NCBI GenBank assembly: GCA_026004195.1
Contig: BPIQ01000004.1
Coordinates: forward strand, 104,923-143,506
Direction: 5' to 3'
Origin: Candidatus Binatia bacterium
GTDB taxonomy: Bacteria; Desulfobacterota; Binatia; HRBIN30; BPIQ01
Length of the DNA stretch: 38,584 nt
Shown here one piece after another: positions 2,738 to 24,045 of the stretch. Position 1 is the first letter of the stretch; each line of letters opens with the position of its first letter. Made by a program: the position numbers and the translations under genes. The notes beneath the pieces are model-generated. The model had not been told where the DNA came from and searched no databases. It saw only the letters and a program-made list of their open reading frames with translations.

Positions 2738-3460
2738 GTGGCGTCGGCCTTTTTCGTTACGGGCACGGATACGGGCGTCGGCAAGACGTTCCTCGGTTGC
2801 GCTCTTCTCGCCCTACTCGAAGCCCGGGGCCGGAAGTGCGCGCCGCTCAAGGTAGCGGAGACGGGGTGCCGGACGAGCCCCGCGGGGCTCTTTCCGTCCG
2901 ATGCCGCGCTCTTACGGTACTTCTCGAGGTGCACGGCCGCCCTCGAGACCGTCTGCCCCTACCGCTTCGAAGAGCCCTTGGCACCTTGGGTAGCGGCCCG
3001 CCGAAGGGGCGGAGACGTCGAGCTTCCGAGAATCCGGCAAGCCTTCGAAACCCTCGCTGCGGAGGCCGAATTCGTACTGGTCGAGGGAGCAGGGGGCTTC
3101 CTGGTGCCACTCGGCACCGGGTCGACCATGGCCGACCTGTGCCGGCACTGGCGCCTTCCGGTTCTTCTGGTCGTGGGCTCGAAACTGGGGGCGCTCAACC
3201 ACACCTTGCTGACCGTCGAAGCCATCGAGAGAAGGGGCCTTCCGTTCCTCGGTTACGTGGTCAATTTTCCCGAGCCCGGGCGAGACTTGGCTGCGGAAAC
3301 CAATGTCGGGGTCCTGCGGGAGCTCCTCGGTAGCCCCCTAGGGGTGCTCCCCCGTGCTCCGTTCCCACTCGAAGACCGCGAGGAGATTCGGGAAAAGCTC
3401 GTGCAGTTCGCGCGGGAACACCTGGACGTGGAAGCGTTTCTCGACCGGCTGGCGCGTTGA
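2738..3460 (+). CDS. bioD: Dethiobiotin synthetase
   Basis: An ATP-dependent enzyme that closes the ureido ring of dethiobiotin from diaminopelargonate and CO2, the step after BioA. The 240-residue product has the BioD P-loop TGTDTGVGKT at residues 8-17, the conserved PLKVAETG-type segment (usually PxKPxxTG) near residue 37, and VEGAGG at 115-120, which helps bind Mg-ATP. Start is GTG at 2738, preceded by AGGAAG at a good distance. It ends 94 bp before the oxoamine synthase gene. Length and motifs are normal for the family. Confidence 0.94.
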   Translation: MASAFFVTGTDTGVGKTFLGCALLALLEARGRKCAPLKVAETGCRTSPAGLFPSDAALLRYFSRCTAALETVCPYRFEEPLAPWVAARRRGGDVELPRIRQAFETLAAEAEFVLVEGAGGFLVPLGTGSTMADLCRHWRLPVLLVVGSKLGALNHTLLTVEAIERRGLPFLGYVVNFPEPGRDLAAETNVGVLRELLGSPLGVLPRAPFPLEDREEIREKLVQFAREHLDVEAFLDRLAR

Positions 3461-3554
3461 AAATGCGCCGCCCCCCGGAACTTCCTGCCCCTTTCTGCTA
3501 TTGACAGAATGGGATCACCTCGATAACGAGTCCGCGGGGCGGGGTTTTCAGGGG

Positions 3555-4829
3555 ATGAAGCGCGCAAAAGAACCCGACGAACGCCGAAACGTGCGGCAGC
3601 GGTTCGTCCTCCCGTTCGAGCCCCTCTTGAAACGGGTCGACGAAGCACGGGAGCAAGGGGTTTATCCCTTTTACTGGGCCGTCCTTACCGCGAACGGTCG
3701 GGAACCCGAGCGGAGAGTGGTTCTTACGGCCAACGACTACCTCGGGCTCACGAAGGATCCGCGGGTTCGCGAGGCGGCACAAGCCGCCATTGCCCGCTAC
3801 GGCACGAGCCTCTGCGCCTCGCCGCTGGCCGGAGGGTACACGGAACTCCACCGAGAGCTCGAACGCCGCCTCGCGCGGTTTCTCGAACAAGAAGACGCGG
3901 CTCTGTTCGCGACGGGCTACCAAGCGAACGTGGGTATCGTCTCGGCTCTGGTGGGCCGCGGGGATCTCGTCCTCGCCGATGTCTTCGACCACGCCTCCAT
4001 CGTGGACGGCGCACGCCTTTCGGGGGCCGAAGTTCGCTTCTTCCGCCACAACAGCGTCCGGCACCTCGGGTCGCTGCTCCAGAAGCACTCCGCCGGACGC
4101 CGAACCCTGGTGATCGTCGAAGGAGTCTACAGCGCCGACGGCGACGTCGCGCCGCTGCCCGAGATTTGCGCCACGGCTCACGACCACGGGGCCGTCGTCA
4201 TGGTCGACGAGGCTCACTCGCTCGGCGTGCTGGGGCCCAGGGGTGCCGGCGCAGCCGAGCATTTCGGTCTTCTGGGCGACGTGGACCTCGTGATGGGGAC
4301 GTTGAGCAAGTCGCTCGCCAGCGTGGGTGGCTTCGTGGCGGGAGACCGCTCCCTCGTGGACGTGATCCGCCACCATGCACGCTCGCTGATCTTCTCCGCC
4401 GTGCTGCCCCCCGCGAACGTGGCCGCAGCCCTGGCGTCCCTCGACATCCTCGAGCGGGAGAAAGAGCAGCGGTGGAGGCTCTGGAACAACGCGCGCACGT
4501 TTCTTACCGGGCTCCGCCGCCTGGGCCTCGACACCATGCACAGCGTCACTCCCGTGATCCCGGTGCTCGTCGGGAGCGAATCCCGTGCCGTGGAAGTCAC
4601 GGCCGCGCTCCGAGAAAAAGGCGTCCTGGTGTGCCCGGCCATCCCACCCATGGTGCAAGCCCACCTGAGCCGTGTCCGAGCTCATGTCACGGCGGCGCAC
4701 GACGCCGCCGAGCTCGGGTACGCTCTCGACGCGTTCGGGGAAGTCGCCTCGCGGTACGGCCTGCCGCGCCGAGAGCGGGCGGACGAAGACGTCCTCGAGC
4801 CCGAAGGTCTCGCCTCGCAGGCTCCATGA
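3555..4829 (+). CDS. Alpha-oxoamine synthase, probable serine palmitoyltransferase (BioF possible)
   Basis: A PLP enzyme that condenses an amino acid with an acyl thioester and releases CO2. Of 424 residues, His146 (DHASIVDG) should stack on the PLP ring, Asp218 and His221 (DEAHSLG) contact the cofactor, and Lys252 (GTLSKSLASVGG) should form the Schiff base. The SKSxAS-GGF pattern, the RSLIFSAVLPP block and the TPVIPVLVG segment resemble serine palmitoyltransferase and KBL rather than typical KAPA synthase. The stop overlaps the ACP start (ATGA), and an acyl-AMP ligase follows, the same trio used for ACP-dependent sphingoid base synthesis in Caulobacter. The close bioA-bioD pair makes a BioF role, or a double role, a real alternative. 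The ATG at 3555 follows CAGGGG; the frame is open further upstream without family-like sequence. Confidence 0.8.
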   Translation: MKRAKEPDERRNVRQRFVLPFEPLLKRVDEAREQGVYPFYWAVLTANGREPERRVVLTANDYLGLTKDPRVREAAQAAIARYGTSLCASPLAGGYTELHRELERRLARFLEQEDAALFATGYQANVGIVSALVGRGDLVLADVFDHASIVDGARLSGAEVRFFRHNSVRHLGSLLQKHSAGRRTLVIVEGVYSADGDVAPLPEICATAHDHGAVVMVDEAHSLGVLGPRGAGAAEHFGLLGDVDLVMGTLSKSLASVGGFVAGDRSLVDVIRHHARSLIFSAVLPPANVAAALASLDILEREKEQRWRLWNNARTFLTGLRRLGLDTMHSVTPVIPVLVGSESRAVEVTAALREKGVLVCPAIPPMVQAHLSRVRAHVTAAHDAAELGYALDAFGEVASRYGLPRRERADEDVLEPEGLASQAP

Positions 4830-5122
4830 CCTCGAGGGGAGACCGACCTCCGTCCGTGGCCACTCCCTCCCTCGAAGACGTGAAGGCCACGCTGCGCCGG
4901 CTGATCGAAGAGAACGCGGGGATTCCCGCGAGTTCGATCCGGGACGACTCCACGATCGACGGCGATCTGGCCATGGACTCGCTTTCGTTCGTTTCTCTTC
5001 AGGTCGCGGTCGAGGAAGAGTACGACATCAGCTGCGACCCCGAAGAGATCGAGCGGCGCAACCGTTTCGACGCGATCGCCCAGCTCGTCCACGAACTCGT
5101 GCTCGCGCGTTCGGGTTCCTGA
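4826..5122 (+). CDS. Acyl carrier protein
   Basis: A 98-residue ACP with the phosphopantetheine attachment site MDSLSF, the serine being residue 52, followed by an acidic helix. It overlaps the oxoamine synthase stop by 4 bp (ATGA) and lies 14 bp before the acyl-AMP ligase, so it probably carries the fatty acyl chain activated by that ligase to the serine-palmitoyltransferase-like enzyme. A roughly 15-residue leader before the first helix is longer than in housekeeping AcpP. It is probably dedicated to this pathway and not the general fatty acid synthase carrier; that is inferred from context. Confidence 0.9.
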   Translation: MTSRGDRPPSVATPSLEDVKATLRRLIEENAGIPASSIRDDSTIDGDLAMDSLSFVSLQVAVEEEYDISCDPEEIERRNRFDAIAQLVHELVLARSGS

Positions 5123-5136
5123 GACGGGAGACAGCC

Positions 5137-6783
5137 GTGGCGGCGCGTACTCTCACCGAAGGGCTCGAAGGGCAGGTCGCGCGCGACCCCGGGGCGGTCG
5201 CCTTCGTCCTCGAAAGCCTCGAAAACCCGCCACTCGAGGTGCGGCGCGGGCCCTTGCGAGAAGGTGCCCTCCGGATGGCCCGAGGACTCGTCTCCCTCGG
5301 GCTCCGCCGGGGCGGGCGCGTGCTTCTGATGTTGCCCACGAGCGTCGAGTTCGTGGAGCTTTTCTTCGGGACGCTCGACGCGGGAGGCACGCCGGTACCC
5401 GCTTACCCCCCCGTCAACGCGCGACAGCTCGCCGACCTCGGCAGGTCGCTCGAAAAATTCGGTCGCACGTCGGGGACCGAGCTGGCCGTCCTCCCCGGCT
5501 TTCTGCGCGACGGGCTGCCCGTGCTCGAAGGAGTGCGCGTCACCACCCCCGAGGAAATCCGCGAAGCCGGGAAAAAACCGGTCGCGCTGCCACCGCCGCC
5601 GGGCCCCGACGATCTCGCTCTGGTTCAGTTTTCTTCCGGCAGCACCGGCGATCCCAAGGGGATCTGTCTCTCCCATGCCAACATCCTGAGCAACATCCTC
5701 GCCTTCGCGGATCGCCTGCAGCAGAGCTCGTCCGACGTGTGCGTGACCTGGCTACCCCTCTACCACGACATGGGTCTGATCGGGACGCTCCTCGCCCCCA
5801 TTCTCCGGGGCGTGCCTCTGGCCCTGCTCTCGCCCCTGGACTTCCTGCGGCGCCCGGTGTCGTGGATCCGGCTCCTCTCGAAGTACCGCGCGACGATCGG
5901 CGTGGCCCCGCAGTTCGCATACAGCCTCTGCGCGCGGAAGGTGGACCCCGGGGAACTCTCGGATCTCGACCTTTCCTGTGTCCGCGTGCTCCTGAACGGA
6001 GCCGAGCCGATCCATCCCGAAGGGATCGACGCCTTCGAGGAGAAGCTCGCACCGCTGGGCCTTCGGCGCGGCGTCGTGACACCGTGCTACGGCCTGGGCG
6101 AGGCGACGCTGGCCGTCACGATGCGAGCACCCGGGAGCGGCGCTCCGAGCATCGACGTCCCGGTCGCCGAGGGGACGACGATGCGGGTCGCCTCGGTGGG
6201 CCCACCCGTCCTCGGGACGGAGGTGCGGATCCGCGACGAGCGGGGGAACTGGTTGCCGGAGGATCGGATCGGGGAGATCTGCGTTCGCGGGCCCTCGGTC
6301 TGCGTCGGATATCTCCGGGGCGACCGGATCGAGCCCGCGACGGACGCCGAGGGTTGGCTCCCCACGGGGGACCTCGGACTCCTCCACGGGGGAGAGCTCT
6401 ACGTCACGGGCCGAAAAAAAGACCTCGTCATCGTCGGCGGCCGCAACCTCTACCCCCAGGAAATCGAGGCCGAAGCCGGGAAGATCGCGGGCGTGCGTCC
6501 GGGGCGGATCGTGGCGTTCGGAATCGCCGAGCCCCGGCGGGACACGGAAGCGCTGGTCGTCGTGGCCGAAGCCGTGGACGACCGGCGTGGCGAGGAAATC
6601 GTCGGCGAACTCCGGCGCTCGTTACTCGCGAAGTTCGGCGTGGCGCCCTACGACGTGCTTCTGGTGGGCAAGGGAGAGGTGCCCCGGACCACGAGCGGAA
6701 AGCTTCGGAGGAGCGAGGCGAGAGCGATGTACCTCGGCGGAAACTTCTCCCACGTCCTCTACCGGCTGCGGTCCGCCCCCTAG
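5137..6783 (+). CDS. Fatty-acyl-AMP ligase / acyl-ACP synthetase (FAAL type)
   Basis: An adenylate-forming enzyme expected to activate a fatty acid as acyl-AMP and load it on the neighbouring ACP. It is 548 residues from GTG 5137, preceded by GGGAG. Visible motifs are the P-loop-like SSGSTGDPKG (166-175), the FAAL-typical LPLYHDMGLIG around residues 206-216, and the C-terminal SGKLRR with Lys522. The HDMGL motif separates FAALs from ordinary acyl-CoA ligases. The stop codon overlaps the convergent stop of the Tam41-like gene by 4 bp. Acyl-CoA synthesis cannot be excluded without knowing whether the FAAL-specific insertion is present. Confidence 0.88.
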   Translation: MAARTLTEGLEGQVARDPGAVAFVLESLENPPLEVRRGPLREGALRMARGLVSLGLRRGGRVLLMLPTSVEFVELFFGTLDAGGTPVPAYPPVNARQLADLGRSLEKFGRTSGTELAVLPGFLRDGLPVLEGVRVTTPEEIREAGKKPVALPPPPGPDDLALVQFSSGSTGDPKGICLSHANILSNILAFADRLQQSSSDVCVTWLPLYHDMGLIGTLLAPILRGVPLALLSPLDFLRRPVSWIRLLSKYRATIGVAPQFAYSLCARKVDPGELSDLDLSCVRVLLNGAEPIHPEGIDAFEEKLAPLGLRRGVVTPCYGLGEATLAVTMRAPGSGAPSIDVPVAEGTTMRVASVGPPVLGTEVRIRDERGNWLPEDRIGEICVRGPSVCVGYLRGDRIEPATDAEGWLPTGDLGLLHGGELYVTGRKKDLVIVGGRNLYPQEIEAEAGKIAGVRPGRIVAFGIAEPRRDTEALVVVAEAVDDRRGEEIVGELRRSLLAKFGVAPYDVLLVGKGEVPRTTSGKLRRSEARAMYLGGNFSHVLYRLRSAP

Positions 6784-7724
6784 CGGAAAGCCCCCCGCCG
6801 GAAGAGGTCCCAGAAGACCCGCGCCAGGCCCACGATCCGAAACCGTCCCTCGAGAAGCTTGCGGTCCGCTCGAATCCCGGAATGCCGTTCGATCTTCCAG
6901 AGGACGTAGTCCACACCTCCCCGGAAGGTGACCCACCCTTTCAGGATCCGGAGAAGCGAGAGCCCCTTCCCGAGCCACGCCCTCGCACGCCACGCCCACC
7001 GGCCACGGCTCCTCGCCAGGCGCGACAATCGCGAGCGAAAGCGGTCGGCACCGAGCCTTTCCAGACCGGCCGCCGGGGCAACGAGCCCCGTCACCTCGCG
7101 GTAGCGCGCCGGCGCCGCTGCGAAAAGCTTCTCCGCTACGTCCTCCCTTTCCGAGCGGAGCTCCGTGCCGTAGGACGCCCGAAATCCGGCCACCCACAAC
7201 TCGCGGCTCGAAAACTCCTCCGGCACGAGCGGAAGCGAACGAACCACGAAGGTTCGCACGGCTTCCGCGAGAGCCACCGTGACGGTCCGGCGAGCTTGGG
7301 CGTCCCTCGCGTAAAGCAGGGCGCACGGCTGGCTGAAACGCGCCCAGAAGTAGGGATGAAAAGCCCGCTCGGAGACCGAACGGCGGAACTTCTCCACGGA
7401 CACGACGGCGTACTTGGCGCGCAGGGTCTCGCCGTCGCGGCTCTGCTCGACGTAGAACACGTTGGGCGGGAGCAGCCAGTTCGCGAACGCGAGGGCAAGG
7501 CGCCCGTAGTACGCTCCGTAACCGCGGACGAGAACGTAGAAATCGAGGACCCCCTCGCGGTCGTCCCGCCTGCGAAAGTTGGAACCGTAGAAGAGGATCG
7601 CGTCGATGGCCCCGCGTTCGGCGTCCGCCCGAACGAGACTCCTGGCCAATACCATGGCTCCCTCGGGTACGGGCTCCTGGAGCTCACGCGAGACCAGCTC
7701 CACGAGCTCGGAAGAGACGGTCAT
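6780..7724 (-). CDS. Tam41-like nucleotidyltransferase (possible CDP-lipid synthase)
   Basis: 314 residues. The N-terminal half has the layout of Tam41/Mmp37, the mitochondrial CDP-diacylglycerol synthase: YGS at 46-48, an LDF acidic site at 60-62, PNVFYVE at 87-93, RAKYAVVS at 102-109 and FWARFSQP at 126-133. In the nucleotidyltransferase fold, the YGS segment and the Asp of LDF would bind nucleotide and metal. The C-terminal region is basic with some hydrophobic stretches, consistent with membrane association. Its ATG overlaps the stop of the lipid kinase gene (ATGA), so the two are translationally coupled. A kinase product (phospho-lipid) and CTP would be fitting substrates. Similarity is judged by eye from short motifs, so the reaction is a hypothesis. 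Confidence 0.65.
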   Translation of the reverse strand: MTVSSELVELVSRELQEPVPEGAMVLARSLVRADAERGAIDAILFYGSNFRRRDDREGVLDFYVLVRGYGAYYGRLALAFANWLLPPNVFYVEQSRDGETLRAKYAVVSVEKFRRSVSERAFHPYFWARFSQPCALLYARDAQARRTVTVALAEAVRTFVVRSLPLVPEEFSSRELWVAGFRASYGTELRSEREDVAEKLFAAAPARYREVTGLVAPAAGLERLGADRFRSRLSRLARSRGRWAWRARAWLGKGLSLLRILKGWVTFRGGVDYVLWKIERHSGIRADRKLLEGRFRIVGLARVFWDLFRRGAFR

Positions 7725-8788
7725 CGAACCGGGAGGCGGTAGAAGGGCGCGGTGACACCGTTCACGAGGTCGAGCGGCACCCCTTTCCGGCTCTCGAAAA
7801 GCTCCCCGTCGAGCGCGAAGCCACCCTCGAATTCGAGACGCACGCATCGGGCGTTCGCGCTCAGGTACCCGTTCTCGCGGGTGACGAACGAATTGGGGCG
7901 CCCCCTCATGATCGGCAGAACGACGCGGAGCGCGTGCTGCGGGGCATATCGGATCGCCGTGAACCTGAGCGGTGCCGGTCCCTCGCCCCAGAAGGGTCGC
8001 AACCCGAAAAGGAGCCGCCGGAGAGTCGTGACCTGTACGCCGAGAAAATCCCCTTCCTCGATCGTTTCTCCGTCGACTTCCCCGCTCATCCGAAGAGGCG
8101 GAATCAGCGATCCCCTCGGGCCGAAGAGGATCTGGCCCAGGACGAGAGCGAGTGTGATGCCGGGACCCGTCTCCCCCCGTGCCCCGGCTCGCTGGATCCA
8201 CTCCCGACAAAAGCGGATACCGTGGTAGATGGCTCCGGCGGCGAAATACATGCCGTAAAGGTCGAGGCGGCGGTCCGCGGAAAGCAGGCGGAGGACCGGA
8301 CGATGCTCGAGCCGCCCGGGAAGCCTCCCGAGCCGTGCGTCCTCGAGAACCTTCCGGAGAACGGACGCCGGATCGCCCCTCGAGCCCACGTCGCCCGCCG
8401 TCATGTTCGTCGTCCCTCCCGGCAAGACCAGGAGCAGGGGGAAAAAGCCCGTCGTCCGTCGGCGAAAAAGGCAAGTCAGGACGGCTTGCACGGTGCCGTC
8501 GCCTCCGTTGACCGCGAGCAGTTCCACGCCATCCCGCAGAAGCATGTCGACCGCGTCGTGAATCCCCGCCTCGTCGAACACCTCGAAATGCCGAACGTCA
8601 CGGTGTTCGCCGAGGAGCTCGAGGATCCGGCGGAACTTTCTCCGAGCGAGATTCCGGCCCGCCCTCGGATTGTTCACGACCCCCACCCGGATGGCGCGCG
8701 GAAGCTCGAGGGGCGGCTCGAGAACGGGAAGGAGAGAAAGCTCGTTCGAGTCCCGGGCTCGCCCGGGATAGTGCGACAGGGGATTCAA
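7721..8788 (-). CDS. Lipid kinase, diacylglycerol/sphingosine kinase (DAGK/LCB5) family
   Basis: 355 residues with the DAGK catalytic domain: VNNPRAGRN at 38-46, the nucleotide-binding GGDGT at 95-99, and PGGTTN at 123-128, with a C-terminal domain ending in a FALDGE motif. The family phosphorylates diacylglycerol, sphingoid bases or ceramide at the inner membrane. It lies between the CDP-alcohol transferase gene (16 bp gap) and the Tam41-like gene (4 bp overlap), in the operon next to the ceramide genes, so a ceramide or diacylglycerol substrate is likely. The start is a TTG at 8788 with a GAGGA ribosome site about 9 bases upstream; a later start near residue 35 would still keep the whole kinase fold. 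Confidence 0.85.
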   Translation of the reverse strand: MNPLSHYPGRARDSNELSLLPVLEPPLELPRAIRVGVVNNPRAGRNLARRKFRRILELLGEHRDVRHFEVFDEAGIHDAVDMLLRDGVELLAVNGGDGTVQAVLTCLFRRRTTGFFPLLLVLPGGTTNMTAGDVGSRGDPASVLRKVLEDARLGRLPGRLEHRPVLRLLSADRRLDLYGMYFAAGAIYHGIRFCREWIQRAGARGETGPGITLALVLGQILFGPRGSLIPPLRMSGEVDGETIEEGDFLGVQVTTLRRLLFGLRPFWGEGPAPLRFTAIRYAPQHALRVVLPIMRGRPNSFVTRENGYLSANARCVRLEFEGGFALDGELFESRKGVPLDLVNGVTAPFYRLPVR

Positions 8789-8804
8789 CGAAGTGTTCCT
8801 CGAT

Positions 8805-10040
8805 TCAGCTTGCGGCGAGCTCCGCCCGCCGTACGAAAGGCCGAGCGTAACACGGGATCGACTCCGCGGCGGGGTCCACGTTTTCGAGCCACGAAACCAA
8901 AGGCCCCGACGTCCAGCGACAAAATCCAGCCCATACGAGTCTCGCCGCGAGAAAGACGGCGGACACCGACGTCCAGACGGCGACGGCCAGAACGCCGAGA
9001 TCCGGCCTATTCATAAGGGCCGCCCCGGTCAGAAGCAACAAGTTGGGGTTCCGGCGAGCCATGACGAGCCGGAAGTAAGAATCGACCGGGCGCCAAGAGA
9101 AGATTTCGAACGGCGCGAGAACCGTCGAAAAGGCCCCCTCGCAAAGTCTGCCCGCGACGTAGGCCACGACGATGACCGCGAGGAGGTCCTCGAGCCAGAA
9201 GCCAGCCACGCGGGGCTCGGTCGCCGGAAGGCCGAGACCCCAGGCGACGTACCAGACGGGGGGGTGAAGCACGTCGATCCCGTGGTCCAAAAAATGACCG
9301 AAGCGAGACGACCGGACCGTCACCCGCGCAAGCTTTCCGTCCACGGTGTCGAGGAACGTCATGAACCACGCGACGAGGAGTCCCGGGCCGTAGCTCCCCT
9401 GGAGAAAAAGGCCTGTCGCCAGGAGAACGAGCGCGAGGCTCGTCCACGTCACGGCATCCGGGGAGATCCCCCAGCGAACGCAGAGCCCGGTGACCCACCG
9501 CGCCGGACGCGGCCAGACCCACTTCGTGATCAGGTCGGTGATGCCCTTGTAGGCGCCCTCGAAAAGGTGTCGCTCGAGAAGCTCCTTTTTTTCCTCCGAG
9601 ATCCGGACGACCACGGGAAGCTCCGCCTTCCTGAGACTCCCGATGTGTCGAGAGGGCACGAGAGTGGCGGGGCTCTCGAGATCGAGGCCCTCCGGTGCTC
9701 CACGGAGCTCCCCCTCGAGATACGGAAGCACTCGCCGAACTTCGGGCAGTGGGACGTGGACCGCCACGACGGGCGCTTCGGCCGAATCCAAAGCTCGCAG
9801 CGCGGTGCCGGGGCGGCCGACGAGAGCCTGGAGCACCCGGGAATCGAAAAGATAATCCCCTCGCACCAAGACGACGGTCTCGGCACCCGAAGACTCGAGC
9901 TTCTCGGGCCCGACGGTGCGGACTCCGAGCTCGTCGAGCTGCCGCCGAAGCCGCTCGTCCGAAGAAAGGCCCCAGAGGCGGACCGGCGAAGCCCCCACGA
10001 TACGGGCGACGACTGTCCTCTGCGATCGCTTCTCTCTCAC
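8805..10040 (-). CDS. CDP-alcohol phosphatidyltransferase with N-terminal nucleotidyltransferase-like domain
   Basis: 411 residues. The C-terminal half carries the complete family signature DxxDGxxARx8GxxxDxxxD at residues 231-256, set among several membrane helices. Such enzymes move a phospho-alcohol from a CDP-linked donor to a second alcohol. Residues 1-150 look like a degenerate NTP-transferase (GT-A) domain: VARIVGASP and later VVLVRGDYLFD, with a GD pair but no intact glycine-rich nucleotide loop. This order recalls the fused inositol-phosphate cytidylyltransferase / di-inositol-phosphate synthase enzymes. GTG start at 10040, 54 bp after lptG. It could join a polar head group to ceramide or diacylglycerol; the substrate is unknown. 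Confidence 0.85.
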   Translation of the reverse strand: MREKRSQRTVVARIVGASPVRLWGLSSDERLRRQLDELGVRTVGPEKLESSGAETVVLVRGDYLFDSRVLQALVGRPGTALRALDSAEAPVVAVHVPLPEVRRVLPYLEGELRGAPEGLDLESPATLVPSRHIGSLRKAELPVVVRISEEKKELLERHLFEGAYKGITDLITKWVWPRPARWVTGLCVRWGISPDAVTWTSLALVLLATGLFLQGSYGPGLLVAWFMTFLDTVDGKLARVTVRSSRFGHFLDHGIDVLHPPVWYVAWGLGLPATEPRVAGFWLEDLLAVIVVAYVAGRLCEGAFSTVLAPFEIFSWRPVDSYFRLVMARRNPNLLLLTGAALMNRPDLGVLAVAVWTSVSAVFLAARLVWAGFCRWTSGPLVSWLENVDPAAESIPCYARPFVRRAELAAS

Positions 10041-10094
10041 CTTACGTCCGGTCCTTTATCACTCCGTTCGGATCCGACGAAAGAGGGCGGGCGC

Positions 10095-11165
10095 TCACCC
10101 TTCTTCGAGCCGAGCGTAGAGCGCCAGCGCAACCGTGAAGAGCAGGAAGCTCGGCAAAAGCGCCGTCAGGAAACCCGGCAGGGCGTAGACGACCCCGAGC
10201 CGCAAGAAAAGCTGACTCAGGAGCTGGAAGCCGAGACCCGTGAGTCCTCCCAGAACGGAGCGGATGCCCACGTTTCGTCTTTCCGCCCGAACGAGAACGA
10301 ACGGGACGGCGACGAAAACCATGAGGCTCGTCACGAGCGGCATCCCGAGCCTCTGCCAGAGAACGATCTCGTACCGCGTAGGGCTTTCCCCGCGGCGGCG
10401 AAGCGAGCGGACCGAACGAACGAGTTCCTCGAGCGACCGGTATTGCGGTGCGTAGAAGAGAATCCCGAGCTGCTTGCGGCTCAGGAATCTCCCCCAGAAG
10501 GCCACGGGCTCGCGCTCCACCTTGACGCCGTCCGGTCCGAACTCCCCCACCAGAACGTCCCGCGCGTACCAGAGTCCGCCCGAATAGACGGCCTCGCGGG
10601 CGTAGCGGAAAGCCCGCATCCGATATCCCTCGTCGAACTCGTACACGTAGACGTCCTCGAGCCTGTTCCCCGGAAGCCGGCGCCGGATGTTGACGAACCG
10701 TCCGCGGTCTCTCGTCCAGAAGCCGTTGCGCGTCTCGAGACTCGAACCCCCTGCAAGCGCACGCGAACGCCGGGTCTCCCCGTGCTGCGCGAGGGGTGCG
10801 AAGCAGAACTCGTGGGCCAGAGCCATGCCCAGCGCGAGAGCGGCGGCCGCCTTGAGAACGGCGCGCACCAGCGTGCCGTAGGAGAGCCCCGCGGCCCACA
10901 TCGCCACGAGCTCGCAGCGAGCCGCCATCAGAGCGAGCCCGTTGACGGCGCCGAAAAGCGCGGCTGCGGGACTCAATTCGTACGCTCGAGCCGGCAAGAC
11001 GAGCAGCAGGTAGATCAGGGCGTCGCGAACGGTATACCCCCCTGTTCCGACGTGTTCGAGTTCGTCCATGAAGTCGACCACGGAGAAAACCGCGAGGAAC
11101 ACGAGCAACGCGAGGAAAAACCCCTGCGCGACGTTCCGCGCGATGTAACGGTCGAGGAGCTTCAT
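10095..11165 (-). CDS. LptG/LptF family permease (LptG-like, YjgQ)
   Basis: 356 residues with the YjgP/YjgQ plan: an N-terminal MKLLDRYIARNVAQGF leader into a first helix (about 12-34), more helices to about residue 125, a periplasmic beta-rich domain (about 130-260), and C-terminal helices (about 275-350). In LPS export, LptF and LptG form the inner-membrane ABC permease that pulls lipid out of the outer leaflet. Its ATG overlaps the stop of the lptF-like gene by 4 bp, so the pair is coupled. No LptB-type ATPase or LptC is visible nearby; the ATPase next to the pair is a full-size MsbA-like exporter. Confidence 0.85.
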   Translation of the reverse strand: MKLLDRYIARNVAQGFFLALLVFLAVFSVVDFMDELEHVGTGGYTVRDALIYLLLVLPARAYELSPAAALFGAVNGLALMAARCELVAMWAAGLSYGTLVRAVLKAAAALALGMALAHEFCFAPLAQHGETRRSRALAGGSSLETRNGFWTRDRGRFVNIRRRLPGNRLEDVYVYEFDEGYRMRAFRYAREAVYSGGLWYARDVLVGEFGPDGVKVEREPVAFWGRFLSRKQLGILFYAPQYRSLEELVRSVRSLRRRGESPTRYEIVLWQRLGMPLVTSLMVFVAVPFVLVRAERRNVGIRSVLGGLTGLGFQLLSQLFLRLGVVYALPGFLTALLPSFLLFTVALALYARLEEG

Positions 11166-12247
11166 CGAAATCCGTCTTCTCCTGCCTTCCGGCGGAGGGC
11201 CAGATAGGCTCCCGCTCCGGCGAGCCAGAGAGCATGGACGAGCCAGAGCCCCGGAACCGGAGGAAGAAGGCCGTCGGCGATCCAGCGTTTGGCCGTTCCG
11301 AGCGCCTGACGGTAGGCGACGTAAGCAAGGACGGCCGCGGCCACTTTTCCGAACTTGCCCCGCCGGGGGTCCACGCGGGCAAGGGGGATCGCGACCAGGG
11401 CCAGCAGAAAGGCGTGCACCGGCAACGCGACCCGCCACTCGAACTCGGCGCGATCCTGCGGCCTTGCGGACCGAAGCAAGATCGAAGTGGCGACGACCCT
11501 CGGACTCTCGGGCTCGCTTCGCGCCGTCGAGGCCAGATCGGTCCTCACGACGAGTCGGCGGAAACGCGTGATCTCGAACTTCCCGGGGCCAGGGCGGAGG
11601 TCGTAGCGCCGGCCGTCGAGGAGGGTGAGAAAACGGTAGCCAGTCTCGGGATCCAGGTACTCGACGGCGCGATCGGAAACAAAAACGGAAATCCTGCCGT
11701 CGGTTCGATCCTGGAGAAAAACCCGCCTCATCGTCCCCTCCTTGCGGGACCGGCTCTCTGCGAAAAGCACTTTCCTTCCCTCCGGGCCCACCTCGTAAAA
11801 GCGCCCCGCCTCGAGGGCGCGAAGCTGCACCCTGGCGACGGCCTGACGGCGCACCCGGTCGAACTCCCCCGCAGCCCAGGGCCGCACGAAGAAAGAAAGG
11901 GCCGCCACGACCAGAGAAAACACGGCCGCGAAGCCCAGCACGGAGGCGGCGACACGGCGGGGCGGAACACCGCACGCCGCCAGCGCGGTCATCTCGTTGT
12001 CCGCATAGAGCCGGCCCAGGGCGAGAACGACCGCCAGGTAGAACGTGGCGGGGAGAAGCGACGGCAGCGCCACGAGCGCCCGGATCCCGAGCAGAGTGAA
12101 AACCACGTCGGACGGGAGTTCTCCCGCCGCGGCCTCTCCGAGGAGCTGCGTGAGTCTCTGGACGACGAAGACCCCGAGGACGACACCCGAGGCTGCGAGA
12201 AAATGGCCCGAGATTTCGCGGACGACGTACCGGCCGATCGTCGACAT
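11162..12247 (-). CDS. LptF/LptG family permease (LptF-like, YjgP)
   Basis: 361 residues: an N-terminal helix following MSTIGRYVVREISGHF, helices near residues 50-125 (with the typical LPATFYLAVVLALGRLYADN region and the TALAACG segment), a periplasmic domain at about 130-270, and C-terminal helices near 275-350. It is the partner of the following lptG-like gene and starts 15 bp after the ABC transporter stop. Role by family: inner-membrane half of an amphipathic-lipid transporter to the outer membrane. In this operon of lipid-modifying genes it may serve the sphingolipid made here instead of, or in addition to, LPS. Confidence 0.86.
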   Translation of the reverse strand: MSTIGRYVVREISGHFLAASGVVLGVFVVQRLTQLLGEAAAGELPSDVVFTLLGIRALVALPSLLPATFYLAVVLALGRLYADNEMTALAACGVPPRRVAASVLGFAAVFSLVVAALSFFVRPWAAGEFDRVRRQAVARVQLRALEAGRFYEVGPEGRKVLFAESRSRKEGTMRRVFLQDRTDGRISVFVSDRAVEYLDPETGYRFLTLLDGRRYDLRPGPGKFEITRFRRLVVRTDLASTARSEPESPRVVATSILLRSARPQDRAEFEWRVALPVHAFLLALVAIPLARVDPRRGKFGKVAAAVLAYVAYRQALGTAKRWIADGLLPPVPGLWLVHALWLAGAGAYLALRRKAGEDGFR

Positions 12248-12262
12248 CGCGGCGGCACCGCG

Positions 12263-13978
12263 TCAACCGCGATGCCGAAAAGGCACCACGTTCGGGCTCT
12301 CGGGACGGATCTTCCCCTCGCCCACCCGGTACACGGCGTCGGCGATCTCGACCATCGCGCCCCGGTGACTCACGGCGAGAACGGTGAGCCGCCCCTTGAA
12401 ACTCCGGAGCGTGGCACAAAGAGAGGCTTCGGTGGCGGGATCGAGGGCGGCCGTGGCTTCGTCCAGCACCAGGAGCTTGGGACGCCGGACCAGAGCTCGG
12501 GCCAGGGCGATCCTCTGTCGCTGTCCCCCGGAAATTCCGAGGCCCCTCTCCCCCACCCGGGTGGCGAGTCCGTCGGGTAAACTCCGCACGAACTCCCAGG
12601 CGCCCGCCTGTCGAAGCGCCTCCTCGACGTCTTCGCGACGCAGGGCGGGATCACCGAGGCTCACGTTCACGAGCACGCTTTCGTGAAGAAGGAACGGCTC
12701 TTGCGGGACGTAGCCGATCGAGCGACGCCACTTCTTCAGGTCCAGTTCTTCGAGGGGAACGCCGTCGACCAGAACCCTGCCTTCCCGAGGGACGACCATG
12801 CCCAGGATCAAGTCCGTCACCGTCGTCTTGCCGGCTCCCGACGGGCCCACGAGCACCGTGATCCGCCCGGCCGGCACGACGAGCGACGCCTTCTCCAAGA
12901 CGGGCGACTCGGCGTAGGAGAAGCTCACGTCCTCGAGCCGTATCTCTCGCTCGAGCGTGGGCTCTTTGCTCCCTCGATGTTCCTCCCTTTCGCGACTCGC
13001 TTCTTCGATCGTCGCCGAGAGTGACCAGTAAGCGCTCTCGTCGGCGACCATCCGTTCCGCTTCCTTCTGCAGCTTGCCGAGGCTCGCGAGCATCCGGGCG
13101 CAGAGAACGGTGAGCACGATGACCGCCTCCAGAGGAAGAGCCCAGCGGACGGTGGCGACGTACAGCCCCGCGGCGAGAAAGGCGACGATGAGAGGCTCCT
13201 GCAGGGCTCGGAGGGTTTCTTTCGCGAGGACCTGCTTTTCGAGCGCGCGGTTGAGCCGCTGCGTGTCTTTTTCGAGCAGCGGGCCCACGAGTTCTTCGAG
13301 AGCCATGGCTTTGAGGGGCTTGACGGCCTGCAAGGTGTCGGTGAGCCGGCTCAGAAGCGCCCGCGAGAGCCGCGTCTGCTTCGCCCCGGCCCGCCTGGAG
13401 ATACGGACGAGGCGGTTGAGGACGAAGACGACGACCGTGCCGGCGGCCACGGCGAGGACCGTGGCGCGCCACGACACGAGAAGCGCCACGACGGCGTACA
13501 CGCACGTCTGGATGGCGAGAGCGAGCATCGTGGCCGCGTGGAGGTACGCTTCCGAGGCCCGGCTGGCCTCGGACGCGATGGCGTTCGCGAAGGTCCCGAG
13601 GGGTTGCCGGACGTAGTACGACCAGCGAGTCTCGAGAAGGGTCCGAATCAGGGAAAGCCGCAGGTCCGTGGCGACCCGTGCTACCGTGTATCCCACTTGC
13701 TTGTTGGCCAGGAGCACGAGAAGCGCCTTCGCCGTCATTCCGGCGACGATCAAAAGGAGCAGCGTCCCCATCGTGGGCTCGAGGCCCACCACCCGAAGGT
13801 ACCGGACCACTTCTGCCGCGAGACCGGAGTGCGCGCCTTCCCCCTCCGAAGCCAGGGAAACGACGGGCAGAAGACTCGTGAGCCCGACTCCTTCGGCCAC
13901 CCCGGCCAGAAGAAGGCAGAGAAGCGTAAGAAGGCTCCGTCCCGGATAGCGACGGACGAAAGCCGCGACGAGCTTCAT
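12263..13978 (-). CDS. MsbA-like lipid ABC exporter (membrane and ATPase domains fused)
   Basis: 571 residues from the ATG at 13978. The six-helix ABC exporter domain fills about residues 1-320; the ATPase domain has Walker A GPSGAGKTT near residue 378, signature ISGGQRQR near 482, Walker B LLVLDEAT near 504 and H-loop SHR near 537. This layout belongs to half-transporters that dimerise and flip lipids, such as MsbA. It is the first gene of the leftward lipid operon and diverges from the ceramide-synthase-like gene with 77 bp between starts, a likely shared control region. Flipping of ceramide-based or other lipids across the inner membrane is inferred from context. Confidence 0.88.
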   Translation of the reverse strand: MKLVAAFVRRYPGRSLLTLLCLLLAGVAEGVGLTSLLPVVSLASEGEGAHSGLAAEVVRYLRVVGLEPTMGTLLLLIVAGMTAKALLVLLANKQVGYTVARVATDLRLSLIRTLLETRWSYYVRQPLGTFANAIASEASRASEAYLHAATMLALAIQTCVYAVVALLVSWRATVLAVAAGTVVVFVLNRLVRISRRAGAKQTRLSRALLSRLTDTLQAVKPLKAMALEELVGPLLEKDTQRLNRALEKQVLAKETLRALQEPLIVAFLAAGLYVATVRWALPLEAVIVLTVLCARMLASLGKLQKEAERMVADESAYWSLSATIEEASREREEHRGSKEPTLEREIRLEDVSFSYAESPVLEKASLVVPAGRITVLVGPSGAGKTTVTDLILGMVVPREGRVLVDGVPLEELDLKKWRRSIGYVPQEPFLLHESVLVNVSLGDPALRREDVEEALRQAGAWEFVRSLPDGLATRVGERGLGISGGQRQRIALARALVRRPKLLVLDEATAALDPATEASLCATLRSFKGRLTVLAVSHRGAMVEIADAVYRVGEGKIRPESPNVVPFRHRG

Positions 13979-14055
13979 CGAGTTTCTCTTAGCAGGAGAC
14001 CGCTCCTCGCGCACAGGTCGGGGCCCTTGACCGCAGGGGGGCCAGGCGGCAAGGC

Positions 14056-15237
14056 ATGCGCATGCCGGAAGCGACGGCCACGAGCGCGGCCCCGCCCGAG
14101 TCCGGGTCGCGGGTCGAGATCCTCCCCGTCGCCGACCGCTCGACCCTCGAGCGTTTCGTCCGCCTGCCGTGGGACGTCTACCGGGACGACCCTGCCTGGG
14201 TACCGCCGTTGCTCTTGCGGGAGAAGCGCCGGGTCGAGGGGCGACACCCGTTTTTTTCCCACGGCGAAGCCGCTTTCTGGCTGGCCGTTCGGGCCGGGCG
14301 CGCGGTCGGGCGGGTCTCCGCGCAAATCGACCGTCTTCACCTCCAGGTCCACGGCGACGCGACGGGACATTTCGGACTGCTCGAGGCAACGGACGACCCG
14401 GAAGTTTTTCGCGCACTTCTGCGTGCGGCCGAAGCCTGGCTGCGTGCGCGCGGCATGAGGCGCGTCACCGGACCGTTCCATCTTTCGATCAACGAGGAGG
14501 TCGGAACCCTGGTCGAGGGCTTCGAGGCACCTCCGGTCTTTCTCATGCCCCACGGGCGTCCTTACTACGACGTCCGGGTCCGGGAGCAGGGGTACCGAAA
14601 AGCCAAGGACCTGCTCGCTTACATCCTCGACACCCGCACCCCCGTCCCGGACCTGATGAGGGCCACGGTGGAACGCGCCGGGTGGGGAAAGGTACGGCTC
14701 CGTCCGGTGCGCCTCCGTAAGCTCGACGAGGACCTCGAGATTCTGCGGGACATTTTCAACGATGCTTGGTCGAACAACTGGGGCTTCGTCCCCTTCACGC
14801 CCGAAGAGTTCCGGGAGCTCGGCACGAGCCTCCGGCTCTTCGTTCCCCCGGAGTTCGTGCAGATCGCGTACGTCGGCGAGCGGCCCGCGGCCATGCTGGT
14901 CCTGGTTCCCGACCTGAACGAGGTCTTGCGGGAGTTCGACGGCAGACTCTTCCCTTTTCGATGGTTGCGGCTCTGGTGGCGCATCCGGCGAGGAGGGACA
15001 CGGACGGCCCGCGTGCCGCTCATGGGCGTCCGGCGCCGCTACCAGAGGTCGGCACTGGGAATGGCCCTCGTGTTCCTCATGATCGAAGCGGTACGCGAGC
15101 CGCTGCTTTCCCGCGGCTTCCAAAGAGTCGAGCTTTCCTGGATTCTCGAAGACAACCTGGCCATGCGACACGTCCTCGAACGCATCGGGGCGCGACCCTA
15201 CAAGCGCTACCGCGTTTACGAAAAAGAGCTGGATTGA
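14056..15237 (+). CDS. GNAT-fold N-acyltransferase, bacterial ceramide synthase (bCerS) family
   Basis: 393 residues. The protein closely follows the pattern I know for the bCerS family (Caulobacter CCNA_01212): DPAWVPPLLLREKRR and HPFFSHGEAAF near the N-terminus, GRVSAQIDRLH and GHFGLLEATDDPEV, the GPFHLSINEE block, FLMPHGRPYYD, and a C-terminal GNAT half ending near HVLERIGARPYKRYRVYE. bCerS transfers an acyl chain to the amino group of a sphingoid base, a reaction unrelated by descent to eukaryotic ceramide synthases. Start is ATG 14056 (a second ATG lies at 14062). The stop is 6 bp before the next gene, so they are co-transcribed. The nearby oxoamine synthase, ACP and FAAL strengthen the call. 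Confidence 0.85.
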   Translation: MRMPEATATSAAPPESGSRVEILPVADRSTLERFVRLPWDVYRDDPAWVPPLLLREKRRVEGRHPFFSHGEAAFWLAVRAGRAVGRVSAQIDRLHLQVHGDATGHFGLLEATDDPEVFRALLRAAEAWLRARGMRRVTGPFHLSINEEVGTLVEGFEAPPVFLMPHGRPYYDVRVREQGYRKAKDLLAYILDTRTPVPDLMRATVERAGWGKVRLRPVRLRKLDEDLEILRDIFNDAWSNNWGFVPFTPEEFRELGTSLRLFVPPEFVQIAYVGERPAAMLVLVPDLNEVLREFDGRLFPFRWLRLWWRIRRGGTRTARVPLMGVRRRYQRSALGMALVFLMIEAVREPLLSRGFQRVELSWILEDNLAMRHVLERIGARPYKRYRVYEKELD

Positions 15238-15243
15238 GGGGCG

Positions 15244-16053
15244 ATGAACTCCGGTGCGAGAGAAATCCGCCGGTGGACGGCACTCGTGCTCGCCGGGACC
15301 CGGCCCGGGGGGGACTGGGCGACCAGAGAACACGGCGCGCCGAAGGCACTGGTGGAGTTCTGTGGCCGCCCGATGCTCGCCTGGGTTCTCGAAGCCCTCG
15401 AAAAATCCGGGGTGTGCCGCGAAATCTTCGTGGCCGGCGTCGACGAAGACGAGCTGCGGAAGCATCCGTCGCTCGCCCCCTGGGCGGCAAGCATACGCTG
15501 CTTCCCGGCGGCGGAGACGCCGAGCACGACGGTTGCCGAATTCCTCGAAGGCCGCAACGAGCCCGTGCTCCTCACGACGGCCGACCATCCCCTGCTGCGA
15601 CCGGAGACGATCCGGTATTTTTGCGAGCGAGCTCGCGGGGACGAAGCGCAGGTTTTCGTCGGCGTCGTTCCGGAAACGATCGTGGCCAGGGCGTTCCCCG
15701 CCGCCAAACGCACCTACGCCCGCTTTCGCGAAGGCGGCTTTTCCGGAGCCAATCTCTTCGCCTTCACAGGGACCGGAGGGGGCGCGGCGGCCCGGGCTTG
15801 GCGAGAGGTGGAACGTTACCGGAAGCAACCGTGGAAACTCGTCCGGGCTCTCGGTCTCTTCGTCCTCGTACGTTTTCTCCTCCACAGAATTTCCCTCGCG
15901 GAGATGGCATCCCTCGTGTCCTGCCGGATCGGCGTGCAGATCCGTCCCGTACCGCTTTGCGACCCGGAAGCCGCCTTCGACGTGGACACGCAGGAAGACT
16001 TCGCCCTGGCAGAAAAGGTGCTCGGCGAGCGACTCGCCCGAGCTCAGGCGTGA
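15244..16053 (+). CDS. MobA-like nucleotidyltransferase
   Basis: 269 residues with an NTP-transferase (GT-A) fold: ALVLAGTRPGGD at 13-24, the lysine of APKALVEF (Lys34), TTADHPLL as the metal-site region near 116, and DVDTQED at 246-252. The glycine-rich loop is of the LAGxRPGGD variant and not MobA's LAGGxSxRMG, so molybdenum cofactor synthesis is unlikely. A hydrophobic stretch around residues 203-220 could touch the membrane. A GAGGGG ribosome site lies between the bCerS-like stop and this ATG. Given its place it may activate a head-group precursor, but no substrate can be read from the sequence. Its 3' end overlaps the convergent cytidylyltransferase gene by 10 bp. Confidence 0.78.
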   Translation: MNSGAREIRRWTALVLAGTRPGGDWATREHGAPKALVEFCGRPMLAWVLEALEKSGVCREIFVAGVDEDELRKHPSLAPWAASIRCFPAAETPSTTVAEFLEGRNEPVLLTTADHPLLRPETIRYFCERARGDEAQVFVGVVPETIVARAFPAAKRTYARFREGGFSGANLFAFTGTGGGAAARAWREVERYRKQPWKLVRALGLFVLVRFLLHRISLAEMASLVSCRIGVQIRPVPLCDPEAAFDVDTQEDFALAEKVLGERLARAQA

Positions 16054-16802
16054 ACTGCCACCTGCTCGGGCGGAACGACCAGGTGGGAAACCACCTCGGC
16101 AGCTCGGGGCAGGTCCCGCAGGTAGTCGATTTCGGTCCAGAGGAGCCCGTGGACAGAAACCGCCCGAACCAAGCCACGGCGGGCGAGGAGGTCCACGACC
16201 GAAAGGTACCAGCGCCCCGGGTTTTCGGATTTCTCCACGGCATCGACCAGCGCCCGGCGGAAGAGAGCGGGCCCTTCCCCCCGAAAAAGGAGGACCCCGA
16301 TGGATTCGGCGTTGGTTTCCGAGATCGGCAAGTCCTTGCCGATCCTGCGAACCCATCCTCCTTCGCAGCGGACCTTCATGTCGTCCTCGTCGTAAGCCTC
16401 CTTTTGGTCGACTGCGAGGGCCACAGGCGCGGGGTCGCTCCAGAGAAGCTTCGCCAGGATTGCCTTTTCGAAAAGGGTGTCCCCGTTGACGAGAAAAAAG
16501 TCCTCGTCCATCTCGTCCCGTGCAGCCCAACAACTCACCAGGTTGTCGGACGACGCAAAGAAAGCATTGTAAACGGTCCGCGCCTGCGCCCGCCCGCGGC
16601 AGATACGTTCGAGCTCCTCTTTGACCTTGGAGGCGCCGAAACCCACCACGGTCACGATTTCGTCGACGCCGAAAGACAGGAGCTCGCGCACCTGCCATTC
16701 GAGAATCGTCCTGCCTTGGATCCGGAGAAGGCACTTCGGCCGCTCCGACGTGAGTGGCAGGAGGCGGCGCCCCTGACCCGCGTTGAGAATCAAGGCTTTC
16801 AC
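16044..16802 (-). CDS. LicC/IPCT-like cytidylyltransferase (sugar- or polyol-phosphate)
   Basis: 252 residues. N-terminal LNAGQGRRLLPLT (6-18) followed by RPKCLL with Lys23 is the nucleotide-binding signature of the LicC (phosphocholine) and inositol-1-phosphate cytidylyltransferase group. FLVNGDTLF (about 103-111) holds the metal-binding Asp, and WTEID lies near the C-terminus. Such enzymes make CDP-choline or CDP-inositol from CTP, the kind of donor a CDP-alcohol transferase uses, and one is encoded 6 kb away in the same locus. GTG start at 16802 with AGGGGGA upstream. A sugar-1-phosphate nucleotidyltransferase role is the main alternative. Confidence 0.8.
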   Translation of the reverse strand: MKALILNAGQGRRLLPLTSERPKCLLRIQGRTILEWQVRELLSFGVDEIVTVVGFGASKVKEELERICRGRAQARTVYNAFFASSDNLVSCWAARDEMDEDFFLVNGDTLFEKAILAKLLWSDPAPVALAVDQKEAYDEDDMKVRCEGGWVRRIGKDLPISETNAESIGVLLFRGEGPALFRRALVDAVEKSENPGRWYLSVVDLLARRGLVRAVSVHGLLWTEIDYLRDLPRAAEVVSHLVVPPEQVAVHA

Positions 16803-17156
16803 GTCCCCGTCCCCCTACGTCTTCTACTGACCTCTCCGTCGCCGCCGCTCGACCCTTGCTCCGAAACCCCAGGGGCCCGAGGCGCGGCCCGTCCTACCCC
16901 CCCGGCCCCATAGCACGAACGCCACCCCTTGCACAGCCCCGCCAGAGGCTCCCGGGTAGCTCCTCGGAACGGCCGGCGATCCCGTACACATGGTCGGTTT
17001 TCCTCGAAAGAACAAACGACGCGGCGCGTAAAAGGTTTCCTCGGGCGATCCTCTCCCCGGCGCATGCTCGTCCGCCCGGCGACGAGGCGTGGCCTCCAGC
17101 CGAAAGGGAACTTGATTCGGAAAAGGCCGTCCATTAGAGAAGGCGTTTGCCGAGGC
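16803..17156. other. Intergenic region upstream of tRNA-Phe; no gene seen
   Basis: 354 bp between the start of the leftward cytidylyltransferase and the tRNA. Open frames exist on both strands, but their composition is Arg/Pro/Gly-rich with no recognisable pattern, so I regard them as chance. The right end holds a possible tRNA promoter. Confidence 0.6.
17112..17140 (+). promoter_or_regulatory. Possible promoter for tRNA-Phe
   Basis: A -35-like TTGATT at 17112-17117 and, 17 bp later, a weak -10-like TAGAGA at 17135-17140. Transcription would start about 10 bp before the tRNA. The -35 matches 4 of 6 consensus bases and the -10 matches 3 of 6, so this rests mainly on position and spacing. Confidence 0.35.
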
Positions 17157-17229
17157 GGGCAGGTAGCTCAGTCGGTAGAGCAAGGGACTGAAAATCCCTG
17201 TGTCGAGTGTTCGATTCACTCCCTGCCCA
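17157..17229 (+). tRNA. tRNA-Phe (anticodon GAA)
   Basis: A 73-base cloverleaf. The acceptor stem GGGCAGG pairs fully with CCTGCCC. The anticodon stem AGGGA/TCCCT encloses loop CTGAAAA with anticodon GAA, and the T arm GAGTG/CACTC encloses TTCGATT. The discriminator base is A, and the 3' CCA is not encoded (the genome reads CTT after A), so CCA must be added after transcription. No integrase or attachment-site duplication is visible next to it. Confidence 0.96.
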
Positions 17230-17318
17230 CTTCTTTCCCTCACCCTGTCGAATTCGCCCTTTTTTGGCGAGCCCGCCCATTGCAAAAGCTCCGCCTGCGG
17301 TCGTAGGGTGGGGCATCC

Positions 17319-20023: not shown

Positions 20024-20048
20024 GAGGCCGGCCGGACTCGTCCCCCCG

Positions 20049-24041: not shown

Positions 24042-24045
24042 CGCC

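Follow-up and report, generated by a model that had tools for sequence, protein, structure and literature searches.

We analysed a 38,584-nucleotide stretch of DNA (the window, on contig C4) from a member of the little-studied class Binatia, which the NCBI taxonomy gives as the class of Candidatus Binatota and whose member's genome assembly here is 3.63 Mb and 98.94% complete. Window positions 3555–16802 very probably encode the synthesis and export of a phosphosphingolipid by a pathway that works like that of the Caulobacter CPG/CPG2 cluster. The locus begins on the plus strand with an SPT-type alpha-oxoamine synthase (AOS), an acyl carrier protein (ACP) and a fatty acyl-AMP ligase (FAAL). 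A minus-strand block follows, which reads ABC exporter, LptF, LptG, CDP-alcohol phosphotransferase (CDPAP), lipid kinase (LipK) and Tam41-like protein (Tam41L), and the locus closes with a GNAT-family acyltransferase and a nucleotidyltransferase (NTP1) on the plus strand and a second nucleotidyltransferase (NTP2) on the minus strand. Besides this gene content, computation established similarity to SPT-type clusters elsewhere, grouping of the AOS with the SPT side of its family, a Tam41 fold in the model of Tam41L and the presence of a second LptF/LptG pair. The locus appears to be a CerR-less variant of the Caulobacter-type phosphosphingolipid cluster, and its pathway a conserved one.

The known system is the Caulobacter region CC_1168–CC_1152, which Olea-Ozuna et al. 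2024 (PMC11324152) describe as the CPG/CPG2 cluster with five ceramide genes. In their account CC_1160 is a ceramide kinase, CC_1161 has an InterPro CDP-diacylglycerol (CDP-DAG) synthase domain and is needed for CPG, CC_1159 has a CDP-alcohol Pfam domain, CC_1153 and CC_1152 are nucleotidyltransferases, CC_1158 is a phosphoesterase that is not essential in Caulobacter, and the cluster also holds LptC2, LptF2, LptG2 and a potential flippase, CC_1166; the authors suggest an NDP-activated ceramide and call the condensing enzyme so far unknown to them. On that description the window shares the SPT, ACP, acyl-ACP ligase and bCerS-type GNAT, a lipid kinase with a CDP-DAG-synthase-like protein, a CDP-alcohol domain protein, two nucleotidyltransferases (one COG1213-type, one CofC/MobA-like), a flippase candidate and, as LptF2 and LptG2, a second LptF/LptG pair. 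It differs in being more compact, in belonging to class Binatia and in coming from a genome without a CerR counterpart or a CC_1158-type match. An earlier note on this DNA had taken the head-group genes (kinase, Tam41-like protein and CDP-alcohol transferase) for a combination not yet described; because the Caulobacter cluster holds the same set (PMC11324152, PMC12275187), the combination is not new.

The genes named in that note are present, with synthesis, head-group and export genes together as it had claimed. The AOS gene overlaps the ACP gene and the ACP gene the FAAL gene by 4 bases each, spacing within the minus-strand unit from ABC to Tam41L is −4 to 54 bases, and GNAT and NTP1 are 6 bases apart, such that genes within a unit either overlap by 4 bases or are separated by gaps of 6 to 54 bases. 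A promoter scan of 2600–17200 found none, and transcription units were therefore assigned from spacing alone; they number four rather than the three proposed earlier, since NTP2 (16044–16802) is convergent with NTP1 (15244–16053). The grouping is not due to chance, because relatives hold most of these genes together. None of the three outcomes that the earlier note gave as telling against its reading was seen: the AOS does not group with KAPA synthases, the GNAT protein is related to the GNATs of SPT-type clusters, and related genomes do not keep the genes apart.

Indeed, Tam41L occurs in 15 of 58 genomes of the class, the source genome included, and the 14 stretches fetched from the other 14 genomes hold LipK in every case, each time beside Tam41L, together with CDPAP in 9, AOS in 8, GNAT in 8 and a CerR-type gene near the cluster in 7. 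A genome_contigs search matched at least 595 stretches, at least 583 of which encode a Tam41L relative. The best 80 of these, at least three of which (L139, L141 and L148) come from genomes already among the 58, contain LipK in 69, LptF in 58, LptG in 55, a phosphoesterase in 48, GNAT in 42, CDPAP and NTP1 in 36 each, CerR in 30, FAAL in 28, AOS in 26, ACP in 23, NTP2 in 20 and ABC in 15. Many of these contigs are short; the 37 long loci of at least 20.5 kb contain LipK in 34, LptF in 30, GNAT in 29, LptG in 28, NTP1 and phosphoesterase in 24 each, CDPAP in 21, CerR and FAAL in 19 each, AOS in 18, ACP in 16, NTP2 in 15 and ABC in 9. In records whose titles name several phyla, Tam41L and LipK stand alongside genes for SPT-type AOS, ACP, CerR-type proteins, FAAL and GNAT.

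Individual clusters show how far the resemblance extends. Nitrosomonas europaea ATCC 25978 (L124) has GNAT-NTP1-LptF-LptG-CDPAP-LipK-Tam41L and keeps the window order from LptF to Tam41L, and in annotated Proteobacterial plasmid clusters, where the labels SPT, CerR and bCerS were given from gene context, every window gene between AOS and NTP2 has a relative, the ACP by annotation alone. One such cluster lies on plasmid pBYT5-2 of Pseudomonas sp. BYT-5 (L034), and its genes comprise ABC, SPT, ACP, CerR, FAAL, GNAT, NTP, LptF, LptG, LipK, Tam41L, metallophosphoesterase, CDPAP and cytidylyltransferase: each window gene from AOS to NTP2 has a relative there, at 29–51% identity for all except the ACP, which is matched by annotation, whereas the gene order differs, a CerR-type reductase and a metallophosphoesterase are present and the plasmid is typed conjugative. 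The pDCB2 plasmid (L033) likewise carries a CPG-like cluster and is typed conjugative. Roseomonas mucosa has CDPAP-LipK-Tam41L-glycosyltransferase-SPT-ACP with the remainder spread over 25 kb, and the Diaphorobacter plasmid cluster has no SPT in the stretch examined. E. coli PN43 has SPT, ACP, CerR, FAAL, LptF, LptG and GNAT (YghO), with neither LipK nor Tam41L annotated in the cluster; its "plasmid" record (L036) has chromosome-like genes (glc, pitB) flanking the cluster and may be a chromosome piece.

For BLAST matches at E below 0.01, identities to the window proteins were 45–51% for ABC, 36–48% for CDPAP, 45–47% for NTP2, 33–39% for Tam41L, 37–42% for AOS, 36–38% for FAAL (from three SPT-type clusters), 36% for NTP1, 26–32% for LipK, 28–31% for LptF and 27–29% for LptG; no match at E 0.01 was obtained for ACP or for LptF and LptG of Roseomonas. 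The 51% identity of the window ABC is with the exporter whose gene adjoins the SPT-type AOS of pBYT5-2. The GNAT protein (14056–15237, plus strand), a bCerS candidate, is 44–49% identical over 371–385 columns to the GNATs of four Proteobacterial SPT-type clusters and 36% identical to a Rubrobacter protein encoded next to an SPT-type AOS, and is in this sense a relative of the GNATs of SPT-type clusters.

The AOS (3555–4829, plus strand; Aminotran_1_2 1.8e-54) is the sole strong match to its family in the source genome, where the bioF model otherwise finds three matches of 19–20 bits. In a 38-row tree, whose SPT references were labelled from gene context while their records say aminotransferase, it joins the SPT side with support of 97/94, together with the reference AOS from Pseudomonas, Roseomonas, Rubrobacter and E. 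coli PN43 and all eight AOS rows from Tam41L stretches; the BioF and KBL of E. coli and the BioF-like AOS of relatives lie opposite. It is long-branched and the inner fork is weak (92/57), with L061 outside the window AOS on the same side; measured along the tree, the rows closest to it are SPT-type. At the 11 strict diagnostic columns it carries the SPT residue seven times, the BioF residue once and neither three times. The best solved structures are SPT (3a2b/8guh, 306.6 bits), followed by a KAPA synthase/KBL-named protein (272.8), KBL (250.4), Sphingomonas-type SPT (249.5) and BioF (193). Taken together these comparisons support a position on the SPT side rather than among KAPA synthases, as the earlier note had proposed; tree placement and best solved match also rule out KBL. 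We write "SPT-type" because the protein passes no NCBIfam SPT equivalog cut-off (NF047600 383/640 bits, NF047599 350/500); it is also below that for KAPA synthase (TIGR00858, 375/426). Proteins in the PDB carry both KAPA synthase and KBL names (8s1y, 7poa), so there is precedent for an AOS enzyme with two names. The two overlapping genes that follow encode the ACP (4826–5122, plus strand; PP-binding 8.2e-10, DSL motif), AcpR-like by position, and the FAAL (5119–6783, plus strand; AMP-binding 8.3e-64), a candidate AasR-like acyl-ACP synthetase whose start codon is unsettled, with an L codon at 5119.

Several observations weigh against a Caulobacter-like phosphosphingolipid pathway. No CerR counterpart, which the earlier note had advised looking for elsewhere in the genome, was found in the whole source genome, only lower-scoring epimerase relatives: the best protein reaches about 124–125 bits with the CerR profile, compared with 252–545 for 31 CerR-type proteins, a set labelled from context that consists of other loci's proteins and includes some copies of profile seeds. 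Those scores tell against CerR as the identity of the best of 18 matches to the eight-protein profile (125 bits); when one Pseudomonas protein served as the query, the match was weak and partial. The top NCBIfam match of the best protein is HpnA (137.9 bits), which is not by itself discriminating because two CerR-type references also match HpnA best. No CC_1158-type phosphoesterase match was found in the source genome in a search with one query and no positive control. The pathway as described is therefore incomplete here. A Caulobacter cerR deletion is reported to accumulate oxidized ceramide (PMC11087976), and a CerR-less pathway might therefore stop there or use another reductase. The likeness to Caulobacter, moreover, was taken domain by domain from the paper, sequences being compared through Roseomonas, Diaphorobacter, Pseudomonas and Nitrosomonas. 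Seven of the 37 long loci have SPT, ACP, bCerS, LipK and Tam41L and lack CDPAP, which means that Tam41L has to function there with no CDPAP close by. Finally, the row of the tree set most identical to the AOS in pairwise comparison (48% over 330 columns) lies on the BioF side, its NCBIfam scores are near-even (SPT model 383 bits, bioF 375), and a looser residue count, 24 SPT-like to 23 BioF-like, argues against a clean SPT assignment.

The neighbourhood bears on the same point. BioA (702–2147) and BioD (2738–3460) are encoded directly upstream of the AOS on the same strand, with 590 bases between them (2148–2737) and 94 bases from the end of bioD to the AOS start, an arrangement not weighed in the earlier note. 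The source genome also has bioB (373.9 bits at C3:393327–394241), and a search with the bioF model found no BioF above the cut-off of 426 bits. We compared ten genomes chosen from the 15 Binatia genomes with Tam41L. BioF was found in seven (461–498 bits) and SPT-type AOS in all ten (358–418 bits), with nothing above the bioF cut-off in the source genome (G000), G018 and G050. BioD is above its own cut-off in seven and absent from G018, G050 and G033, which leaves the source genome alone in having BioD without BioF; in five of the six compared genomes with both genes, BioF lies within 4 kb of BioD. An order-level search of 15 genomes gave four with a match at 1e-85, and gene context was seen for G007 and G014: neither bioA nor bioD lies beside the SPT-type AOS in the stretches fetched, and in G007, of the same order as the source genome, BioF, BioA and BioD are grouped away from the sphingolipid genes. 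In the Binatia genomes G005 and G011, whose stretches (L023 and L022) have head-group and LptF/LptG genes, the sole AOS scores only weakly, at 269 and 256 bits; these scores are in the BioF-like range, and an SPT may be missing or unassembled.

The presence of bioA, bioB and bioD suggests that the organism needs KAPA synthase activity, and an assembly gap, uptake of KAPA or a bifunctional AOS would explain the missing BioF. It is possible, if rather unlikely, that the SPT-type AOS has replaced BioF and makes both KAPA and the sphingoid base, and that, CerR being absent too, the lipid is either exported as a head-grouped 3-keto-ceramide or reduced by some unrelated enzyme; one enzyme for both products would account for the position of the AOS, which has bioA-bioD on one side and the ACP and ligase of the sphingolipid pathway on the other. 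We consider it very unlikely that the AOS is a plain BioF of a bioA-bioD-bioF operon and that the remaining genes do not form a ceramide pathway. The biotin genes upstream, the presence of bioB, the want of another strong AOS match, the usual nearness of BioF to BioD, the 48% identity and the even residue count all speak for such an enzyme. Against it stand the tree, the strict columns and the best solved match, a bioF score of 375 bits that is within the SPT-type range and below that of the BioFs, and the overlaps of AOS with ACP and of ACP with FAAL, near a bCerS candidate.

Tam41L (6780–7724, minus strand), which is CpgC-like, gave no Pfam match at 1e-3 and no NCBIfam match at 1e-2; against PF09139 it scored E 0.002 and 18 bits, under the gathering score of 24, hence the label "Tam41-like", and PF09139 was seen in three of 19 family members at E up to 10. 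A plain sequence search against solved structures found one chance antibody match (E 2), and a profile search four, none with an E value better than 0.11, of which two were nucleotidyltransferases. The predicted model has a mean pLDDT of 93.6 and a pTM of 0.91. Its top five Foldseek matches are all Tam41 (E 1.4e-8 to 7.2e-8; next family 1.2e-4), and VIA-align gave Z 19.0 with 7ecd (229 residues, 3.2 A), then 16.6 and 16.2, with an aminoglycoside nucleotidyltransferase as next family at Z 9.6; the match excludes the C-terminal part from about residue 268. At the level of this model a Tam41 fold is confirmed, in agreement with the earlier reading. The 19-row alignment is invariant at Y46-G47-S48, R51, D61, K104, W127, R129, Q132-P133, E188, R190 and E192, and S48 and R51 are nearly invariant over 36 rows. 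Tam41L thus resembles Tam41 CDP-DAG synthase (7ecd, 6ig4, 6ig2) in fold, over 220–229 residues at Z 16.2–19.0, and in a motif with one invariant acid (D61), as reported for Tam41; it differs in sequence, being 14–17% identical, and in having a lipid kinase nearby in most loci. That it is the likely counterpart of CC_1161 follows from the domain given for CC_1161 in the paper and from Roseomonas synteny (CDPAP-LipK-Tam41L-SPT compared with CC_1159-1160-1161-1162). The obvious hypothesis from the model is that Tam41L would be a CTP:ceramide-1-phosphate cytidylyltransferase; Dhakephalkar et al. 2025 (PMC12275187) call the mechanism of CpgC unidentified.

The two genes next to it encode LipK (7721–8788, minus strand; DAGK_cat 1.2e-14), a CpgB-like ceramide kinase candidate, and CDPAP (8805–10040, minus strand; PF01066 1.2e-9), CpgA-like and with a complete catalytic motif, D-x2-DG-x2-AR-x8-G-x3-D-x3-D. 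A diacylglycerol kinase, a Tam41 CDP-DAG synthase and a phosphatidylinositol-phosphate (PIP) type synthase could instead form a glycerolipid pathway to which the SPT-type genes are adjacent by accident. Bacterial Tam41 can make CDP-DAG according to PMC11646218, and the best NCBIfam matches of CDPAP are archaetidylinositol phosphate and PIP synthases; those scores, however, are far under their cut-offs (50/180 and 46/170 bits), Tam41L and LipK are co-located with the sphingolipid genes in several phyla, and the reported roles of CC_1160 and CC_1161 (PMC11324152) are in ceramide phosphorylation and CPG formation, which makes a glycerolipid product highly improbable. A second, distinct CDPAP, like Diaphorobacter CDPAP1, occurs in L024, L026, L030 and L033. 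In the Binatia loci it adjoins NTP1 or ABC, and in Diaphorobacter its neighbours are LptG and GNAT.

The nature of the head group is suggested by NTP2 (16044–16802, minus strand), a COG1213-type, CpgD-like cytidylyltransferase; NTP1 (15244–16053, plus strand) is MobA/CofC-like and CC_1153-like. CpgD (CCNA_01210) is reported to be a CTP:phosphoglycerate cytidylyltransferase that makes CDP-glycerate (PMC12275187). COG1213-type relatives recur in the clusters. When motifs and their spacing are used to pair residues with those given in PMC12275187 and PMC13228409, at an offset of 3 and later of 4, R13, K23, N87 and N106-G107-D108 of NTP2 match CpgD R16, K26, N90 and N110-G111-D112, so that on this pairing the catalytic and glycerate-contacting positions are present, whereas the cytosine-contacting Thr88 and Thr93 would be Ser85 and Ser90 if the offset of 3 holds. 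A DN or EN with the NGD motif is found in 26 of 26 alignment rows, picked by similarity to the window. Among solved structures NTP2 matches the phosphocholine enzyme 1jyk best and 4jd0 next; the NGD motif makes a phosphocholine or inositol-phosphate enzyme less likely.

We tested six gene pairs for association in the long loci, which are related genomes, so that p values overstate independence. NTP2 is present in 15 of 21 loci with CDPAP and in none of 16 without it (p 6e-6), as expected if CDP-glycerate feeds CDPAP. Phosphoesterase and NTP1 are associated (p 1.7e-4), as are CDPAP with phosphoesterase and CDPAP with NTP1 (p 0.036 each); for CDPAP and AOS, p is 0.51. Phosphoesterase and AOS are negatively associated, with AOS in seven of 24 loci that have the phosphoesterase and 11 of 13 that do not (p 0.0019), so that in loci with a phosphoesterase the SPT often lies too far away to be seen. 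CDPAP, phosphoesterase, NTP1 and NTP2 are all missing from eight long loci; seven of them are the CDPAP-less SPT loci mentioned above (L117, L122, L125, L136, L142, L144 and L150, several titled Kordiimonas and one Candidatus Kuenenia), six of which also have CerR and FAAL, with no CDP-alcohol transferase within about 10 kb on either side. This split fits the Caulobacter division into CPG and CPG2 genes, by analogy with that cluster.

Export genes complete the minus-strand unit: an LptG-type permease (10095–11165; TIGR04408 300 bits, cut-off 240), an LptF-type permease (11162–12247) and an MsbA/HepA-type ABC exporter (12263–13978), a flippase candidate. That these are ordinary lipopolysaccharide export machinery placed here incidentally, as the LptG score above the equivalog cut-off for that role might suggest, is scarcely credible given another LptF/LptG pair in the source genome (C1:776079–778295), LptF in 58 and LptG in 55 of the best 80 Tam41L loci, and LptF2/LptG2 in the Caulobacter cluster (PMC11324152). 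With the pair on C1, the window LptF/LptG is a second pair, as in Caulobacter, and we infer by analogy that it carries the sphingolipid.

In the pathway we propose, FAAL would load a fatty acid onto ACP, and the SPT-type AOS would condense the ACP-bound fatty acid with serine to 3-ketosphinganine. The GNAT protein, as bCerS, would attach the second acyl chain, and the lipid kinase would form ceramide-1-phosphate, which Tam41L and CTP would activate to CDP-ceramide. NTP2 would make CDP-glycerate, like CpgD, and CDPAP would couple the lipid to its head group, which is probably phosphoglycerate. Flipping of the lipid would then fall to the ABC exporter, and the second LptF/LptG pair would lift it towards the outer membrane. 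Each reaction and substrate, the order of the steps and the final lipid are what we infer from the genes and their relatives. Beyond the locus, the window has a tRNA-Phe at 17157–17230 and, at 17972–37821, genes for acyl-CoA dehydrogenases, an E1 dehydrogenase, a lipoyl/alpha-beta hydrolase fusion, a pseudouridine synthase, a 2-hydroxyacid dehydrogenase and others.

In the library of papers searched, no publication joins Binatota and sphingolipid. Spt-like proteins have been reported in metagenome-assembled genomes of 38 phyla in a Black Sea study (PMC11334938), and sphingolipids in a further phylum would therefore not surprise. The occurrence of NTP2 only in those long loci that have CDPAP supports CDP-glycerate as the CDPAP donor, the Tam41 fold gives a structural reason to test the CpgC-like step as the maker of CDP-ceramide, and the BioF question is precise enough for an enzyme test. 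With this locus the range of the CPG-like gene set comes to include class Binatia, and its wide occurrence becomes apparent.

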